Positions 1,719-32,426 of a DNA stretch of 34,853 nt are shown here, in pieces (the stretch's first letter is position 1; every line of letters starts with the position of its first letter). The position numbers and the translations under genes were made by a program. The DNA comes from an uncultured Clostridia bacterium. Lineage in GTDB: Bacteria; Bacillota; Clostridia; Christensenellales; UBA1242. The DNA lies in NCBI GenBank assembly GCA_944381205.1, contig CALWKG010000003.1, forward strand, positions 91,573-126,425, read 5' to 3'. The notes under the pieces were generated by a model. The model saw nothing but the letters and a program-made list of their open reading frames with translations, did no database searches and was not told where the DNA came from.

Positions 1719-4700
1719 ATGAATCAATCTAATCCAGCAATTAAGAAAACTAAGTGTGGAAAAGTCGAAAGGGTTAATTTTTCGAAGATTGAAGAACCTA
1801 TTAATATGCCTTATTTAATCGCGATTCAAAAAGATGCCTACAAGCAGTTTTTGGAACACGGAATTGCGGAAGTTTTAGAAGAGTTTTCTCCTATAACCGA
1901 TTATAGTGGCAAGGCAGAAATCTATTTTGTAGACTACACTTTGGACCCAACTAGCAAGTACTCAAAGGCAGAGTGCAAGAGAAAGGGCATAACCTATTCG
2001 GTTGCATTAAAGGCAAGGGTAAGGCTAGTCAGGAAGGAAGACGGCGAAGTGGTCGAGCAAGAAGTATTTTTGGGCGACGTGCCACTTATGACGGAAGAAG
2101 GCTCTTTTATTTTTAACGGCATAGAAAGGGTGGTAGTTAGCCAAATAGTCAGGTCACCTAGTGCCTATTTTGCAAAGGAGCAGGACAAGACCGGCAAGTA
2201 CCTTTTTAGTAGTACGATAATTCCGACTCGTGGCACTTGGATAGAAACCGAACAGAACGTAGGCGGGGTTTTAAAGGTGGTGATTGACAGGAGCAGTAAA
2301 GTCACCTTGGGAGTGTTTTTAAAGTGCTTTGGGCTAACTAACGAGCAGATTGCCGAAACCTTTGGCAAACACCCACTGATTATGAACACCTTGGATAAGG
2401 AAACTCAGGACACGCAGGAAGCCGCGCTAATAGAACTCAGCAAGAGAATGCGTCCTAGCGAAGTTCCTAGTGCCGAAGCCACTTATAACTTTATAAATTC
2501 GCTTTTCTTTACCCACCAGTACTACAATTTGGCAAGGGTAGGAAGGTACAAACTAAACAAAAAGTTGAGCATTGCAAACCGTATAGCAGGGCAAACCGCT
2601 TACGGAGATATAAAGGCTGGCAACAAAGTCTTTGCCCGTGACGGAGAGATTATTTCCCGCGAAGTAGCAAGCGAAATTCAAAACGCGGGCATTAACGAAG
2701 TTTGGCTTAGGGCAAAAACCCTTACCGGCGAGTTTAAGATGAAAAACGACAAATTTGTTCCGCACAAGGTGATTGGCAATAACAGGATAGACTTGTCCGC
2801 GGTTTTGCCTTGTGACGAAAGGGAACTTGGAATTCTCGAAAAAGTTCACATTCCAACCTTAAATAAAGTTTTGGAAGGTTGCAACACTTTGGAAGAAAAG
2901 TTGGAAGCCGTTAGACTAAATGCCAAAGAACTTATGAATTTTCAACTAACTATGGACGACATTATCGCCACCATCAGTTACCACTTGGACCTTAACGAAG
3001 GCATTGGCGAAGTGGATAACATAGACCACTTGGCTAACCGTAGGATTGCCACAGTTGGCGAACTCATAGCGGGCGCGTTTAGGAGCGGAATTAACAAATT
3101 AGCCGGTGTCATTAGGGAAACTCTGCAAGCCCAAGACCTGTCTACCGTTAATCCGTCTAGCATAATAAACCCAAGGCCAGTAAACAAGGCGCTTAAAGAT
3201 TTCCTTGCAAGTTCGCAGTTGTCGCAACTTATGGACCAAGTAAACCCTATAAGCGAACTCACTCAAAAGAGAAAAATTTCCGCCGTTGGCCCGGGCGGTG
3301 TTAAAAAGGAAAGAGCCACCGCAGAAGTCAGGGATATTCACTACTCGCACTACGGCAGGCTCTGCGTTATCGAAACCCCAGAAGGTCAGGGCATCGGGCT
3401 TATAAACTCGCTAGCCACCTATGCCAAGGTCAACGAGTACGGGTTTATCTTGTCCCCGCTTAAAGTGGTGGATAAAAAGGCGGGAGTGGTTACGGATAAG
3501 GTCGTTTATCTTATGGCGGACGAAGAAGAAAACTGTTGCGTCGCCCAAGCCGTAGAGCCTTTGACCGAAGACGGAAGGTTTGTAAACCCAAGGGTAGTAG
3601 TTAGGAAGAAGGAGTCGGTTATCGAAGTCCCTTCTAGCGAAGTAGACTACGTCGACGTTTCCCCAAGGCAACTAATTTCCGCCGCGACGGCACTCATACC
3701 GTTTTTGGCTAACGACGACACCGCTCGTGCGCTTATGGGCTCTAATATGCAAAGGCAGGCAGTACCACTACTAACCACAGAAGCCCCAATAGTCGCCACG
3801 GGTATCGAGCACAAAATAGCCGTAGATAGCGGGGCAATGGTGCTTTGCAAAAAGGCGGGCTTTGTAAGTTATGTTTCCGCCACCGAAATCCGCGTAAACA
3901 ACGACGACGGCGAAACAGATACCTACAACTTGATTAAATTCCAAAAGACCAATCAGGATACCTGCATTAACCAAAAGCCTTGCGTTATCAAAAACCAAAG
4001 GGTAGAAATAGGCGACGTTTTGGCAGATGGTTTTTCTACCAAAGACGGAGAGTTGGCTCTTGGCAAAAATATGACCATCGCATATATGAACTGGGAAGGT
4101 TACAACTACGAAGATGCTATACTTATTTCCGAGCGCATTGTCAGGGAAGACATTTTCACTTCCATTAATTTAAAGGTGGAAGAAATCAAAGCCCGTAGCA
4201 CAAAACTTGGCGACGAAGAAATCACCAGAGATATCCCTAACCTTAGCGACGAAGTGCTTAAAAACCTTGACGAAAACGGCATCGTAAGAATTGGCGCCGA
4301 AGTCCGCACAGGCGATATTTTGGTAGGAAAGGTCACCCCTAAGGGAGAAACCGAACTCACCCCAGAAGAAAGACTCCTTCGAGCAATATTTGGCGAAAAG
4401 GCAAGGGAAGTCAGGGATACGTCTTTACGCGTACAGCACGGTAGGGGCGGTATAGTGGTAGACGTTCAGGTGTTTACAAGGAAAAACAAGGACGAGTTAG
4501 AGCCGGGTGTCAACACTATGATTAAAGTCTACATTGCCCAAAAGAGAAAACTTTCCGTAGGCGACAAAATGGCAGGTAGGCACGGTAACAAAGGTGTTGT
4601 AAGTCGCATACTCCCATTGTCAGACTTGCCGTATATGGCAGACGGCACTCCTGTTGATATAGTTCTAAATCCGCTGGGTATTCCTAGCCGTATGAACGTT

Positions 4701-5462
4701 GGGCAGGTGCTAGAAGTTCTGCTTGGCAAAGTGGCAAAGGTCTTGGATTGGAAGGTAGCCGTTCCGGTATTTGACTGCATTAACGAAAAGGAAATCTTTA
4801 AACTAATGAGCGATAACGACCTTGACGAAGACGGCAAAATGGTGCTTTACGACGGCAGGACAGGCGAGCCGTTTGAAAACAGGGTCACCGTCGGCACAAT
4901 GTATATGCTAAAACTAGACCATATGGTAGACAGCAAAATGCACGCGCGTTCCACGGGTCCATACTCACTTGTTACCCAACAGCCACTAGGTGGTAAGGCT
5001 ATGTTCGGTGGGCAAAGGTTTGGCGAAATGGAAGTTTGGGCTTTGGAAGCCTACGGTGTTTCTCACTTGCTTCAAGAAATGCTTACCATAAAGTCAGACG
5101 ATATCGTTGGCAGAAACAAAACCTACGAGTCCATAGTAAAAGGGCTCCCAATAAACGAACCGGGTATGCCAGAGTCGTTTAAAGTTATGATAAAAGAGTT
5201 CCAAAGTTTGGGGCTAGATATAAGGATTTTGACACAAGAACACAAGGAAGTATCTATAAACGAGTTGTCTAACGACGATTACGAGTCCGCTTCGTTTATC
5301 GCAAAAAATAGGGAACAGGCTCAGGATATAGATATAGGTATAGAAGAACAACCTACCACAGCAGATATAGTTAGCGAGCAAGATGCCGAAAGCGCCAATA
5401 CCCAAAACGACTTGTTCGACGACTTAGACGAAGATGCCTTGTTCGACGACTTAGAAGATTAA
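1719..5462 (+). CDS. rpoB: DNA-directed RNA polymerase subunit beta
   Basis: This is the 1247-residue beta subunit of RNA polymerase, which with beta-prime forms the catalytic cleft. The ATG at 1719 is chosen because AAGGAG (1708-1713) sits five bases before it; the in-frame GTG at 1713 overlaps that site. Visible landmarks are the lobe/protrusion segment FNGIERVVVSQIVRSPSAYF, the rifampicin pocket SQLSQLMDQVNPISELTQKR, the IETPEG motif and GDKMAGRHGNKG near residue 948. The pocket carries Gln (residue 516, codon 3264-3266) where E. coli has His526, and IETPEG is followed by QG instead of PN. The last ~50 residues are an acidic tail with a duplicated LFDDL motif. rplJ and rplL do not precede it. 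Repeat sequence begins immediately after the stop codon. Identity is certain. Confidence 0.98.
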   Translation: MNQSNPAIKKTKCGKVERVNFSKIEEPINMPYLIAIQKDAYKQFLEHGIAEVLEEFSPITDYSGKAEIYFVDYTLDPTSKYSKAECKRKGITYSVALKARVRLVRKEDGEVVEQEVFLGDVPLMTEEGSFIFNGIERVVVSQIVRSPSAYFAKEQDKTGKYLFSSTIIPTRGTWIETEQNVGGVLKVVIDRSSKVTLGVFLKCFGLTNEQIAETFGKHPLIMNTLDKETQDTQEAALIELSKRMRPSEVPSAEATYNFINSLFFTHQYYNLARVGRYKLNKKLSIANRIAGQTAYGDIKAGNKVFARDGEIISREVASEIQNAGINEVWLRAKTLTGEFKMKNDKFVPHKVIGNNRIDLSAVLPCDERELGILEKVHIPTLNKVLEGCNTLEEKLEAVRLNAKELMNFQLTMDDIIATISYHLDLNEGIGEVDNIDHLANRRIATVGELIAGAFRSGINKLAGVIRETLQAQDLSTVNPSSIINPRPVNKALKDFLASSQLSQLMDQVNPISELTQKRKISAVGPGGVKKERATAEVRDIHYSHYGRLCVIETPEGQGIGLINSLATYAKVNEYGFILSPLKVVDKKAGVVTDKVVYLMADEEENCCVAQAVEPLTEDGRFVNPRVVVRKKESVIEVPSSEVDYVDVSPRQLISAATALIPFLANDDTARALMGSNMQRQAVPLLTTEAPIVATGIEHKIAVDSGAMVLCKKAGFVSYVSATEIRVNNDDGETDTYNLIKFQKTNQDTCINQKPCVIKNQRVEIGDVLADGFSTKDGELALGKNMTIAYMNWEGYNYEDAILISERIVREDIFTSINLKVEEIKARSTKLGDEEITRDIPNLSDEVLKNLDENGIVRIGAEVRTGDILVGKVTPKGETELTPEERLLRAIFGEKAREVRDTSLRVQHGRGGIVVDVQVFTRKNKDELEPGVNTMIKVYIAQKRKLSVGDKMAGRHGNKGVVSRILPLSDLPYMADGTPVDIVLNPLGIPSRMNVGQVLEVLLGKVAKVLDWKVAVPVFDCINEKEIFKLMSDNDLDEDGKMVLYDGRTGEPFENRVTVGTMYMLKLDHMVDSKMHARSTGPYSLVTQQPLGGKAMFGGQRFGEMEVWALEAYGVSHLLQEMLTIKSDDIVGRNKTYESIVKGLPINEPGMPESFKVMIKEFQSLGLDIRILTQEHKEVSINELSNDDYESASFIAKNREQAQDIDIGIEEQPTTADIVSEQDAESANTQNDLFDDLDEDALFDDLED

Positions 5463-5697
5463 GAATCCCCACTCTCGAAGACGTACAACTTATACACATT
5501 TTTTACACCTTCGCTTATGAGATTCTTCGTTAGCCGAACAAAGATAGCCCATCTCAGAATGACAAATAGAAATTGATTGTACGTTTCCCGTCATTCTGAG
5601 CGAAGCGAAGAATCCCCACTCTCGAAGACGAATAACTCATTGTACGACGTATACTATTAAACTCAATCTGACCTCTTAGAAAAGTCACCGCAGGCTC

Positions 5698-5774
5698 AAA
5701 ATTAATTTAAAGGCACAATGATTTTTTTACAAAAATCAAAACGTGCCACTATCAATTAATTTTTCGCCCTATCC
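5698..5774. repeat. 77-bp nested palindrome, copy B2
   Basis: All 77 positions match the copy at 994-1070. Here the left flank is an AGAAAAGTCACCGC-type sequence ending GGCTC instead of the CCACGACC-type flank of copies B1 and B3. The right flank is the conserved ATCCC hairpin, 5773-5796, whose arms CCC+AAAATC and GATTTT+GGG surround a short loop. Confidence 0.95.
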
Positions 5775-5842
5775 CAAAAATCTAACGATTTTCGGGAACC
5801 CTGTGTATTAACGTAGGACAAACAAAATTTTCGTTTAGGGCT

Positions 5843-6020
5843 CCCGCAAATTGAAAATTTGTGGGATAAAGCGAGTAGTGATTGTTCGTGTTGCGTACGA
5901 AAATATGCTAATATTTGCGTTGCAACTTACAATCACGTGCGAGCATAGCGAAGCCCGACCGAAAGCGGTGCGTTACTCACTTTTGTTAAAAAGGGAGCCT
6001 GCACCTAAAAGGTCGTGGTT
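5843..6020 (-). repeat. Composite multi-stem repeat module, reverse orientation
   Basis: Reading the minus strand, this starts with CGACC (6015-6011), GGTGC (6005-6001), a variable stem, GCACC (5971-5967) and GGTCG (5960-5956), which fold as nested stems. A second nested structure follows: GTGATTGT (5936-5929) pairs with ACAATCAC (5885-5878) and encloses GTTGC (5926-5922) with GCAAC (5894-5890). It ends with a CCC...GGG hairpin at 5843-5865. The second half is closely related to 32227-32340; the first half matches 9766-9825 and, with compensatory changes, 11004-11062. Confidence 0.8.
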
Positions 6021-6102
6021 GAGCGAAGCGAAGAATCCCCTATCTCGTAAACGTACAACTCATATTACAACCACACTGTTTTACTTAAAATAACCGCCTA
6101 GA

Positions 6103-9100: not shown

Positions 9101-9754
9101 GAATATATGACTCCGCCAAAAAATAAGACCATTTTAGCAGTTCACAGCGGGGACACGGTAGAAGTAGGTCAGTGCTTGACTTCTGGCTCAATTTACCCTA
9201 ACGACATTTTGCGCGTAAGGGGGCTAAGGGGTGTGCAGGAATACCTTTTAAAAGAGGTGCTTAGTGTTTATAGATTGCAGGGTGTTGACATCAATGCAAA
9301 GCATATCGAAATTATTATCCGTCAAATGTTGAGAAAGGTCAAAATAGAAGACCCGGGCGACAGCGAACTATTGCCGGGCGAAACTTTGGAACTTCAAGAC
9401 TACGACGAGATTAACCAAAAGATTTTGATGAACGGCGGTAAGCCAGCCACAGCAAAAAGAGTGCTACTTGGCATAACCAAAGCGGCTTTGTCTACCGAAT
9501 CGTTCTTGTCCGCCGCTTCCTTCCAGGAAACTTCTAGTGTGCTAACCGAAGCCGCTATAAAGGGTAAAGTAGACCACTTGCTAGGACTTAAAGAAAACAT
9601 TATGATAGGTAAATTAATCCCAGCCGGCACGGGTATGAAGTGCTACAAAAATGCCTACCCAGAAATGACTAAGGAATATATCTTGGAAAAGGCAGAAGAA
9701 GAAGCCAACCGCCAACGCGAGCAAGAATTAGCCCAAATAAAAAATGCCGACTAG
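6158..9754 (+). CDS. rpoC: DNA-directed RNA polymerase subunit beta'
   Basis: This 1198-residue beta-prime subunit carries the catalytic magnesium site. AAGGAG (6147-6152) lies five bases before the ATG. The N-terminal zinc ribbon [20 protein letters not shown] is intact. The active site is NADFDGDQM (residues 448-456), with the three Asp ligands at 450, 452 and 454. The next residue is Pro (DQMPIH) where nearly all bacterial sequences I know have Ala. Bridge-helix and trigger-loop segments ([15 protein letters not shown]) and the second Cys cluster ([13 protein letters not shown]) are present. The length fits Firmicutes without large lineage insertions. It is separated from rpoB by about 0.7 kb of repeats, and a repeat module begins at the base after its TAG stop. 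Confidence 0.98.
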
Positions 9755-9905
9755 TCGCTCAGCCACGACCTTTTAGGTGCCGGCTCCCTTTTTAACAAAA
9801 GTGAGTAACGCACCGCTTTCGGTCGGGCTTCGCTTCTCACGACCAAGCGAAATTTTTATTTGTCCTACGTCCAAAAAAAATTTGTCGTGACTTTCTAATA
9901 GGTTA
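9755..9905 (+). repeat. Composite multi-stem repeat module C1
   Basis: Nested stems: CGACC (9766-9770) with GGTCG (9821-9825), GGTGC (9776-9780) with GCACC (9810-9814), and an inner CTCCCTTTT/AAAAGTGAG stem. A second hairpin pairs TCACGAC (9837-9843) with GTCGTGA (9884-9890) and encloses an A/T stem. A conserved CTTTCTAATAGGTTA follows. The related module at 10996-11135 has different bases in several of these stems but keeps the pairing. Confidence 0.85.
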
Positions 9906-10085
9906 GATTGAGTTTAATAGTATACGTTGTGTTACCAATGTATCTCTTCGCTTAGGGGATATTTCGTTAGTCCGTCAAGTAAGCAGACTCAATATGACGT
10001 TTCTCCGTCATTCTGAGAAGGGCAGTCCTGACCGGCTCACGAAGAATCCCCCGTCGCTCAGCCACGACCTTTTAGGTGCCGGCTC

Positions 10086-10162
10086 AAAATTAATTTAAAG
10101 GCACAATGATTTTTTTACAAAAATCAAAACGTGCCCCTATCAATTAATTTTTCGCCCTATCC
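10086..10162. repeat. 77-bp nested palindrome, copy B3
   Basis: Differs from copy B1 at a single base (GTGCCCC instead of GTGCCAC). The left flank is the CCACGACC...GGTGCCGGCTC type, as in B1. The right-hand terminal hairpin seen after the other copies is absent. Confidence 0.95.
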
Positions 10163-10193
10163 TAAAAGGTTGCATTTTCACATTATTCGCCTA

Positions 10194-10222
10194 TTGACAA
10201 ATCCCCATTGTTGTGTTAATAT
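10194..10222 (+). promoter_or_regulatory. Strong promoter for the gene at 10272
   Basis: A consensus TTGACA (10194-10199), a 17-nt spacer and TAATAT (10217-10222) with an upstream TG one base before the -10. It predicts a leader of about 43 nt. Confidence 0.75.
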
Positions 10223-10271
10223 GCCTATGTAAACAAAAGATTAAGGGCAAGATTATATGGAGGTTTATGTT

Positions 10272-10757
10272 ATGGAAGAATTTATCGTTCGTGACAAAAA
10301 TGGAGAAAAAATTGTTTTAAACGAATCTAGGGCAGAGGTGTTAAATCGCATAAAACAGCAAAGCACCAAGGCAACAACCGTTGCGGAAATGCCAACAAAT
10401 AAAGTTCTTAATGGTAAAAACGAAATTAAGTTTTCTGTTTCCGAAAAATCTGACATTAACTTGGTTTTTGTCGATAGCGATGTTTTGCAAAAAAATCAAA
10501 AGTTTTTGGAAGAAAAAGGTATCTTAAAAAGAGTTATCGAAAGGGCTTCTAAAATTGCAAATGAAGCCAAAACAAAGGCTTCTTCAATGGTAAGCAGTGT
10601 TGGCAAAAGGGTAAATGACGTCCTTTCAAAGTTTAAAAACGATGCCAAAAATAATGACGAAAACGTAATAGAATTTGAAGAAAGTTTGCAAAATAATTAC
10701 CCTGATAACGATATAGAACTCTTGTCTGAACAGCAAGACCAAGAAAGAGTAATTTAA
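10272..10757 (+). CDS. Unrecognised 161-residue protein
   Basis: I do not recognise this protein. ATG at 10272 is preferred because TGGAGG (10258-10263) lies eight bases upstream; an in-frame ATG at 10257 overlaps that site. The product has no signal peptide or membrane segment. Residues 1-75 are mixed polar sequence with a short predicted beta-rich part (IKFSVSEKSDINLVFVDSDV). Residues ~75-125 look like a basic amphipathic helix (Lys/Ala/Ser rich, e.g. ASKIANEAKTKASSM). The C-terminal ~35 residues are acidic and Asn/Gln rich. It has its own near-consensus promoter and terminator and sits alone between two repeat clusters, so it is a single-gene transcription unit. A cytoplasmic nucleic-acid- or membrane-surface-binding role is possible but unsupported. 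Confidence 0.75.
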   Translation: MEEFIVRDKNGEKIVLNESRAEVLNRIKQQSTKATTVAEMPTNKVLNGKNEIKFSVSEKSDINLVFVDSDVLQKNQKFLEEKGILKRVIERASKIANEAKTKASSMVSSVGKRVNDVLSKFKNDAKNNDENVIEFEESLQNNYPDNDIELLSEQQDQERVI

Positions 10758-10779
10758 TTGTTTATGTTTAGTTATCTTG

Positions 10780-10825
10780 TCACCATACTCTCATTTTAAT
10801 AAATGCGGGTATGGTGATTTGTTTA
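10780..10825 (+). terminator. Intrinsic terminator after the gene at 10272
   Basis: The stem CACCATACTC (10781-10790) pairs with GGGTATGGTG (10807-10816) around a 16-nt loop. ATTTGTTTATT follows. One G-T wobble. Confidence 0.65.
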
Positions 10826-10995
10826 TTCTAACTTTCCCGTAATTTTGAGTATCACTTCGCCATTTTTGAGTCTATTTTGTCATTGTGTTACCAGTGTATC
10901 CCTTCGATTAGGGGACCCTTCGTCCGCCCTTCTTTGTAAGTCGGGACTCAGGGTGACGTGTCATTCTGAGCGACAGCGAAGAATCCCCTATCTCG

Positions 10996-11135
10996 CTCAT
11001 ACTCAACCTTGTAGGTGCAATTCACATTTTTACAAATGTGAAAAAAGCACCATTTGCGGTTGGTATTCGCTTCTCACCGCCAAACGAAAATTTTGTTTGA
11101 CAATGTCAAAAAAATTTTGCGGTGACTTTCTAATA
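10996..11135 (+). repeat. Composite multi-stem repeat module C2
   Basis: Same architecture as the module at 9755-9905 but with changed bases: CAACC (11004-11008) with GGTTG (11058-11062), GGTGC (11014-11018) with GCACC (11047-11051), CACATTT (11023-11029) with AAATGTG (11034-11040), and TCACCGC (11074-11080) with GCGGTGA (11119-11125). It ends with the same CTTTCTAATAGGTTA. Confidence 0.85.
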
Positions 11136-11329
11136 GGTTACAAGTGATTTATAGTGCAGTTGTTATACAAGTTCAACTTATTACTTAGGTACTAACGACA
11201 TATATAACCCCCCATTTTCTCCGTCATTCTGAGCGACAGCGAAGAATCCCCTATTTCAAAGACGCACAACTCATACTACAATCACACTGATTAACTTAAA
11301 AAAACCGCTTAGAAAGTCACCGCCGGCTC

Positions 11330-11406
11330 AAAATTAATTTAAAGGCACAATAATTTTTTTACAAAAATCAAAACGTGCCACTATCAATTAATTTTTCGCC
11401 CTATCC
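11330..11406. repeat. 77-bp nested palindrome, copy B4
   Basis: One base differs from copy B1 (CAATAATT instead of CAATGATT). The left flank is AGAAAGTCACCGCCGGCTC. The right flank is a variant terminal hairpin (11405-11431) with arms CCCGAAAATG and CATTTTTTCGGG. Confidence 0.95.
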
Positions 11407-11536
11407 CGAAAATGCAAGTCATTTTTTCGGGAGCCCTAGACAAAATTTTTTTAGTTAACACATAAAAAGGTTCTATGTAATAGTAGAGTCTTTTTTTCTT
11501 TTACCAAACAAAAATTCCAAACTTAGTTTAATTTGT

Positions 11537-32109: not shown

Positions 32110-32426
32110 CGTCATTCTATTTTTTATTCGTCTTTCTATTTTTTATTCGTCACTCTGTTTTTTTCGTCATTCTGAGATGGACCCGCTTGACCGGCTAACG
32201 AAGAATCCCCCATCTCGAAGACGCACAGGGTTCCCAAAAATCGTTAGATTTTTGGGATAAAGCGAATAGTGTTTGTCCGTGTTGCGTACGCAAAATATGT
32301 TAATATTTGCGTTGCAACTTACAATCACGTATGAGCGTCGTCATTCTGAGATGGGCTATCGGGCTCGGCTAACGAAGAATCCCCCGGGATTACTACGTCA
32401 TTCTGAGCGAAGCGAAGAATCCCCCC
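32110..32426. repeat. Hairpin-repeat cluster 5 (between greA and holB)
   Basis: Starts with a degenerate ~19-bp tandem repeat built from the REP-like start (GTCATTCTATTTTTTATTC, then GTCTTTCT..., GTCACTCT...). REP-like units follow at 32165-32210, 32339-32385 and 32396-32424, each with the ATTCT/AGAAT stem but different loops. A module at 32227-32340 is related to 5843-5946. The 63-codon open frame over 32273-32464 is repeat sequence and not called. Confidence 0.9.
32227..32340 (-). repeat. Multi-stem repeat module, reverse orientation
   Basis: On the minus strand: ACAATCAC-side stem (32321-32328) with GTGTTTGT (32269-32276, one mismatch), inner GCAAC/GTTGC (32314-32318, 32281-32285), then the terminal hairpin CCCAAAAATC (32233-32242) with GATTTTTGGG (32247-32256), a perfect 10-bp stem. 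It is closely related to the module at 5843-5946, which has different bases in the terminal stem. Confidence 0.8.

Follow-up and report, generated by a model that had tools for sequence, protein, structure and literature searches.

Nested-hairpin modules downstream of rpoC in an uncultured Clostridia bacterium belong to a family of short DNA elements conserved in fold

Hairpin modules of the rpoC locus and their mosaic copies

The window analysed here is a stretch of 34,853 nucleotides from the genome (999 kb, 31 contigs) of an uncultured Clostridia bacterium, and it carries two modules on the plus strand downstream of rpoC. Module C1 (9755-9905), whose first base directly follows the rpoC stop codon, consists of a first domain of type A with an inner hairpin of type I (9757-9833), a second domain of type 1 (9837-9894) and the tail CTTTCTAATAGG. 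Module C2 (10993-11140) consists of a first domain of type B with an inner hairpin of type II (10995-11070), a second domain of type 2 (11074-11129) and a tail. None of 200 dinucleotide shuffles folded as well as either module (z = -4.4 for C1 and -5.4 for C2). The initial annotation described these modules as sets of nested stems that change jointly, and all of the stems that it listed were present, with the joint arm changes confirmed. It also placed a third, inverted half-copy at 5956-6015. An inverted copy was indeed found there, but it extends over 5947-6026 (minus strand) and, being 98% complementary over 80 nt to 9755-9834 of C1, represents the whole first domain (type A, inner hairpin I) and not a chance half-copy.

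The outer arms of domain 1 are CGACC/GGTCG with AGCC/GGCT in type A and CAACC/GGTTG with ATAC/GTAT in type B. Three further module types, D, E and F, have the common frame GCTC-R...Y-TCGC, with a length of 73-76 nt (74-78 nt in types A and B), and differ in their stems; R and Y covary, GCTCA occurring with TTCGC and GCTCG with CTCGC. In types D, E and F, the frame is followed by a second hairpin, TCCC...GGGAGCCC. Copies were searched for with two covariance models whose E-values are rough: R1, which was built from D, E and F units, with C1 and C2 outside its building set, and R2, which was built from other species only (51 distinct rows). C1 matched R1 with 45.4 bits (E 7.6e-7) and was not recovered by R2 at E 0.01, while C2 matched both models (67.8 bits with R1; 66 bits, E 1.9e-10, with R2).

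In the window, R2 detected six full units, including C2, and one partial unit, with E-values from 6e-7 to 6e-15; no R2 match was observed in 16 other loci. The highest score was obtained for a complete two-hairpin unit of type F at 32227-32336 (minus strand; 89 bits, E 6.4e-15). A second type F unit at 5837-5944 (minus strand; 85.4 bits, E 3.3e-14) is the sequence into which the inverted domain 1 runs, and it occupies the place expected of domain 2. Complete type D units were located on the plus strand at 5694-5802 (85.3 bits, E 3.4e-14), at 990-1098 (83 bits, E 9.5e-14), where the unit is joined to a type-A domain-1 5' half (962-993), and at 11326-11437 (75.9 bits, E 2.4e-12), whose second hairpin has G-C at a pair that is elsewhere A-T or mismatched. 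The partial unit (10054-10158, plus strand) is a fusion of a type-A domain-1 5' half (10054-10085) with a type D unit devoid of the second hairpin, and its R2 match covers 10082-10158 (48.3 bits, E 5.9e-7).

The number of copies is not limited to the three noted at first, as 25 matches to C1 were obtained by blastn and 47 matches by R1 in the window's genome. Contigs C1 and C19 of this assembly terminate within copies, and the true copy number is therefore probably higher. A de novo scan for nested hairpins, which was too loose for use alone, gave 72 matches in real and 25 in shuffled intergenic DNA. When the copies of this genome were read side by side, their parts were found to combine freely. 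All four pairings of outer arms A or B with inner hairpins I or II were present, domain 2 occurred in three types and the tail in two, and outer and inner stems were swapped concentrically between copies of one genome. An E copy at C4:14785 carries the interior of E inside the outer arms of F, D units are nested within the inner hairpin of type-A modules on contigs C15 and C4, and E or F units lie at the expected start of domain 2 at C11:10401, at C15:6628 and, in the window, at 5837-5944. At C14:9848-9938 (locus L051), the right end of a D unit is replaced by an inverted domain-1 half, making the unit a near-perfect 91-nt palindrome with outer arms of 23 bp. These data demonstrate that the elements have multiplied into nested mosaics between the genes of this genome. 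The tail that follows C2 is a separate repeat in its own right. Positions 1322-1405 and 11134-11217 of the window form an 84-nt inverted repeat (83% complementary) that includes this tail.

Fold conservation and distribution among relatives

The modules belong to a family of DNA elements of roughly 105 nt in which a nested-hairpin fold is kept. The first hairpin of a unit has three tiers, an outer stem of about 9-10 bp, a middle stem of 5 bp and an inner stem of about 9 bp, separated by internal loops of 4 + 6 nt (outer/middle) and 1-2 + 3-4 nt (middle/inner). The second hairpin has 10 bp (CCC...GGG), and the unit ends with AGCCCT; the common ends in the alignments were GC/TC on the 5' side and GGGAGCCCT on the 3' side.

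In an alignment of 16 domain-1 copies, 95.5% of the pair cells were paired, and two-sided changes were observed in 13 of 22 pairs; both sides had changed in 55 cells, a single side in none. The covariation of these copies was 0.446, compared with 0.173 in shuffled and at most 0.07 in slid controls, bearing out the earlier proposal that their coordinated changes go beyond random decay. Similarly, 13 D, E and F units exhibited 91.3% pairing, with two-sided changes in 17 of 33 pairs (62 cells), no one-sided change, and shuffled and slid controls far below the real values. All 33 modelled pairs of the R2 alignment showed two-sided changes (506 cells, 51 distinct sequences), with a covariation of 0.643 against 0.149 in shuffled and at most 0.097 in slid controls; this alignment was seeded from R1 hits and is therefore biased towards the structure. 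Fold and spacing have thus been maintained while the stems were rewritten, both arms together. The complete lack of one-sided (G-U) steps is unusual for an RNA helix.

Using R1, units were detected in 8 of 12 genomes of the genus, with constant geometry and different stem sequences. R2 extended this distribution to 91 of 197 sampled genomes of the taxonomic family (22 of 42 genera) and to 18 of 121 genomes drawn from the order, with nine further families represented; within genera, the distribution was patchy. The same fold is kept in different genera and families, with hardly any conservation of sequence. A scan of this kind had been suggested in the initial annotation, and the copies that it recovered retained their pairing through two-sided changes. 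By RpoC, the nearest named genomes are those of uncultured Clostridia, one of which carries the label Christensenella. No match to Rfam 15 was found at the gathering score in the whole window, and a relaxed threshold in the two module regions yielded only weak chance matches (E 0.7-5), in agreement with the earlier statement that the modules are not recognisable as a known RNA family. A search of phages and plasmids with C1 gave no match. Matches of viral contigs to the tail word were discounted, as they were unrelated sequences without the hairpin.

Insertion of units in tRNA genes

A tRNA or tmRNA gene was located within 300 nt of 53 of 127 units (42%) in the relatives. In three comparison sets of loci (the rpoC region, own stretches and mobile-gene loci), the proportion of positions so placed was 0, 0.8 and 4.3%; as these sets are small or special, the background is a rough estimate. 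More than half of the relatives' units lie away from tRNA genes and have no insertion signature. Many of the tRNA-associated units exhibited a common layout, [X-N]-unit-rc(N-M)-[X-N]-M, in which N^M denotes the point of insertion, [X-N] a direct repeat and rc(N-M) an inverted copy of the target. The order is a truncated tRNA, the unit, the reverse complement of 12-17 nt of target from across the insertion point, and the direct repeat, which restores the tRNA. Direct repeats of 46-122 nt were found in 17 of the 19 units having N beside the unit, with identity at, for example, 72/72 (G057), 122/122 (G045) and 73/74 (G152) positions. As several of these repeats are perfect or nearly so, some of the insertions are recent. 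Insertion sites with flanking direct repeats, as looked for in a mobile element, are thus present in the relatives.

The inverted target copy was further examined in a fresh set of 70 units picked on model score alone, in which an inverted match was sought 45-220 nt downstream. A copy of at least 12 nt was found for 12 of these units, in contrast to 0.9% of cross-locus pairings. In the full set, such a copy (12 nt or more) was present in 22 units, 21 of which adjoin a tRNA, on or 3' of the unit. Three loci (L072, L180 and L220) have a long inverted match, but N is not directly upstream of the unit. In G152, a tRNA-Ser fragment ending in ...GTCCGAGC is followed by the unit, by ACCTTAAACCGCTCGG, which is the reverse complement of CCGAGC^GGTTTAAGGT, and by the 74-nt repeat with 73 identical positions that leads into an intact tRNA-Ser. 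Other insertion sites were GGAACC^AAAGGT in tRNA-Arg (one locus in each of four genomes), AGAGTG^GTCGAATG in tRNA-Ser, TGCCA^ATTCCGCCA and relatives in tRNA-Leu, TGGACCC^ACTGAT in tRNA-Lys and GAACCC^CTGACC in tRNA-Arg, read in reverse. The site ATGTCC^TAATTTCCCG in G010 lies away from any tRNA and has a direct repeat of 14 nt only. The insertion point differs between tRNAs, being in the anticodon arm (Arg), the D arm (Ser and Leu) or the T arm (Ser), with a further site in tRNA-Lys, and both orientations of the unit relative to the tRNA occur. At L156 (G045), L139 (G095), L095 (G021) and L081 (G010), a truncated tRNA and a unit are repeated in tandem, with two copies each, beside an intact tRNA; some of the truncated copies in tandem arrays were called tRNA genes by ARAGORN.

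Among the copies of the window's genome, whose insertion sites were checked for the inverted target copy only, inverted flank copies were no commoner than in the control, and proximity to tRNA genes was also absent. In this species, amplification appears to have placed the elements inside one another and inside a second palindromic repeat, GTCATTCTGAGCGAAGCGAAGAATCCCC, a process by which their own insertion marks would be lost. It is through the fold model that the window's copies are connected with the tRNA-inserted units of the relatives.

From these data, we consider it somewhat probable that the modules represent a short mobile DNA element, non-autonomous and recognised by its fold, with its recombinase encoded elsewhere. 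The element would be recognised as a folded single strand of DNA, and insertion would be coupled to copying of the target, by a staggered cut or by strand switching, leaving the direct repeat and the inverted target copy. The latter may be a guide that chooses the site or a scar (snap-back) of insertion. Arm sequences would be re-matched by template switching or by conversion between copies, which would account for coordinated changes without G-U intermediates. A more specific version, which we put forward tentatively and hold to be rather doubtful, is a minimal mobile element inherited as a shape, with recognition by fold only, a tail of 12-17 nt that pairs with the sequence on either side of the insertion point and so chooses the site, mostly in tRNA genes, and a target duplication that spares the gene.

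Several of these features might also be produced without any dedicated enzyme, if the units were passive palindromes whose hairpins stall replication and which spread by template switching of the host, through templated tandem duplication and snap-back copies. A single template-switching event during replication is reported to be able to produce perfect stems and compensatory changes of several bases (PMC8794818), consistent with the well-matched, G-U-free arms observed here; the inverted target copy of 12-17 nt resembles a snap-back and the direct repeat a duplication, and the palindrome at C14:9848-9938 with its extended outer arms is also compatible with this reading. However, dozens of unrelated sites show the same unit frame and ends with the parts in a fixed order, there is a strong preference for tRNA genes, and with passive spread alone several switches would be needed anew at every insertion. 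We therefore regard this explanation as unlikely and continue to favour an element moved by a recombinase.

Strand, candidate enzymes and comparison with known systems

The initial annotation left open whether the modules are a folded RNA or a single-stranded-DNA mobile element. Of these alternatives, mobility was supported by the direct-repeat insertions in the tRNA genes of relatives, but an RNA was disfavoured by the analysis of wobble pairs. In 125 units of the relatives, G-U pairs accounted for 3.95 and 3.57% of the predicted stems on the two strands, whereas 83 tRNAs folded by the same method showed the expected excess and asymmetry (10.0% sense, 5.8% antisense). Since G-U pairs are equal on both strands, the stems are strand-symmetric, and their rarity and symmetry favour a DNA-level hairpin over a transcribed RNA. 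The minus strand, opposite to that of the initial annotation, was more stable in 97 of the 125 units (median 3.4 kcal/mol), and the element is possibly a DNA-level hairpin with one preferred single strand. A single functional strand deduced from wobble pairs seemed promising in the window genome's own copies, as the G-U pairs of the E, F and D units are mostly on the minus strand, but was not upheld in the relatives.

A structured RNA, such as a cis-element, a 3' trailer of a tRNA or mRNA, or a small RNA, kept by its fold through ordinary compensatory evolution, would agree with the extensive covariation, with the better folding of the minus strand and the own units' G-U bias towards it, and with the position of several units immediately at the 3' end of tRNA or tmRNA genes (L063 in G010, L018 in G008 and L019 in G001). 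On the other hand, hairpins 1 and 2 favoured opposite strands, and the orientation to genes in the window's genome was mixed (8 sense, 7 antisense, 4 convergent and 3 divergent). Together with the rare, symmetric G-U pairs, the lack of an Rfam match, and the direct repeats and inverted target copies that such an RNA leaves unexplained, these data make it quite unlikely. A terminator scan of 9600-11500 detected one terminator-like site (rpoC end, minus strand), fewer than in shuffles, and the second hairpin of the units is followed by AGCCCT and not at once by the T run of an intrinsic terminator.

We searched for an enzyme that might move the element, and none co-distributed with the units was found among Y1 transposases, reverse transcriptases and tyrosine recombinases. 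The Y1 transposase (PF01797) was absent from the unit-rich genomes G001 and G008, and the Y1 gene of the window's genome belongs to an ordinary IS200 (L057) with unrelated hairpins, so that IS200 was rejected as the mover. A reverse transcriptase gene of 363 aa, for which no curated family scored above the cut-off, is located at about 2337-3428 of L210 (own contig C23) and ends about 0.1 kb short of a C-element tail that is joined to a broken D unit. This adjacency was taken as chance and the enzyme rejected, as reverse transcriptases were absent from G008, G010, G023, G045 and G055. Tyrosine recombinase matches (PF00589, a general family) were found in 22 of 22 genomes tested, and being nearly universal, the enzyme is uninformative as a tracked mover. 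A 334-aa tyrosine recombinase frame (C108:24551-25006) was noted about 320 nt from the unit at L068 (G004:C108:24127-24229).

The units could nevertheless serve a tyrosine recombinase as recombination sites that it recognises as folded single strands of DNA, with att-like direct repeats left in tRNA genes. Integron attC sites likewise show no conservation of sequence and are believed to be recognised in single-stranded form through their structure (PMC2727003). Further, tRNA genes are classical targets of integrases, and matches to the recombinases are present in all genomes tested. Against this, no GTTRRRY / RYYYAAC core boxes were seen in the unit ends on inspection by eye, the inverted target copy is left unexplained, and no convincing ORF was found between neighbouring units at the three loci examined. 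In addition, the sole tyrosine recombinase match in G047 (three contigs, 100% complete), which has a unit, is a 41-residue fragment containing stops, and this genome may be without a normal XerC/D. Sites of this kind are therefore very improbable, and our preferred reading remains a fold-recognised element whose recombinase is encoded elsewhere; we infer that it moves as a single strand.

Small palindromic elements are a known kind, represented by REP and the organelle hairpin elements, and integron attC sites offer a structural parallel. In the open-licence papers searched, we found no description of a family that is maintained by its fold alone, inserts in tRNA genes, spares the gene through a duplication and carries an inverted copy of the target; its absence from these papers is weak evidence. 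REP/BIME sequences, associated with TnpA-REP (RAYT), are short, palindromic, intergenic repeats of high copy number, thought to be non-autonomous and processed as folded single strands (PMC8266576). The units described here are likewise short, palindromic, intergenic and numerous, but they consist of two hairpins, one of which is three-tiered, their stems are not conserved in sequence, the unit-rich G001 and G008 have no Y1 (HuH) transposase, and insertion occurs in tRNA genes with a direct repeat and an inverted target copy. No prominent GTAG-type tetranucleotide, a feature of REP, was seen at the hairpin foot on reading the aligned units. Organelle repetitive hairpin elements are divergent in structure and sequence, scattered, and spread intragenomically (PMC2800124). 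The present units resemble them in their divergent hairpins, scattered distribution and spread within a genome, but lie on a bacterial chromosome, keep their inner geometry across genera and have a defined layout of insertion in tRNA genes. With attC sites, the units share a conserved fold without conserved sequence and unpaired segments between stems, but they have two hairpins, no cassettes and an inverted target copy.

IS200/IS605 elements have subterminal hairpins, move as single strands and choose their site by short base-pairing guides, and direct repeats are not expected of them. The hairpins, the presumed single-stranded movement and the short stretch complementary to the target recall these elements and their palindrome-associated derivatives. 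In contrast, the units carry direct repeats of 46-122 nt, and the hairpins of the window genome's IS200 (L057) are unrelated to them.

An element identified by its fold and not by its sequence escapes ordinary repeat and Rfam searches; about half of the sampled genomes of the family carry this one. Whether the target-complementary tail is a programmable guide or an insertion scar is directly testable, and a guide would constitute a new principle of site choice that could be used as a tool. The joint changes of the arms, almost free of G-U, provide a dense natural data set on the rewriting of stems, and they caution that covariation alone need not imply a functional RNA.

Other repeats were noticed in the course of the analysis. 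The intergenic palindromic repeat GTCATTCTGAGCGAAGCGAAGAATCCCC occurs at 5589-5617, 6012-6040 and 32396-32424 of the window and at about 40 other sites of the genome; its interiors are exchangeable (e.g., ...GAGATGGGC..CCGGCTTACGAAGAATC), and it was absent from the other 23 genomes of that search, being found in the window's genome only. The 3' end of rpoB (5404-5457) contains a tandem 27-nt repeat encoding an acidic NDLFDDLDEDALFDDLED tail. A short tandem array of AGGTTGTTTT, in 10-nt units, lies at 265-334 of the window, and a similar stretch is present in L049 near 4470-4540.
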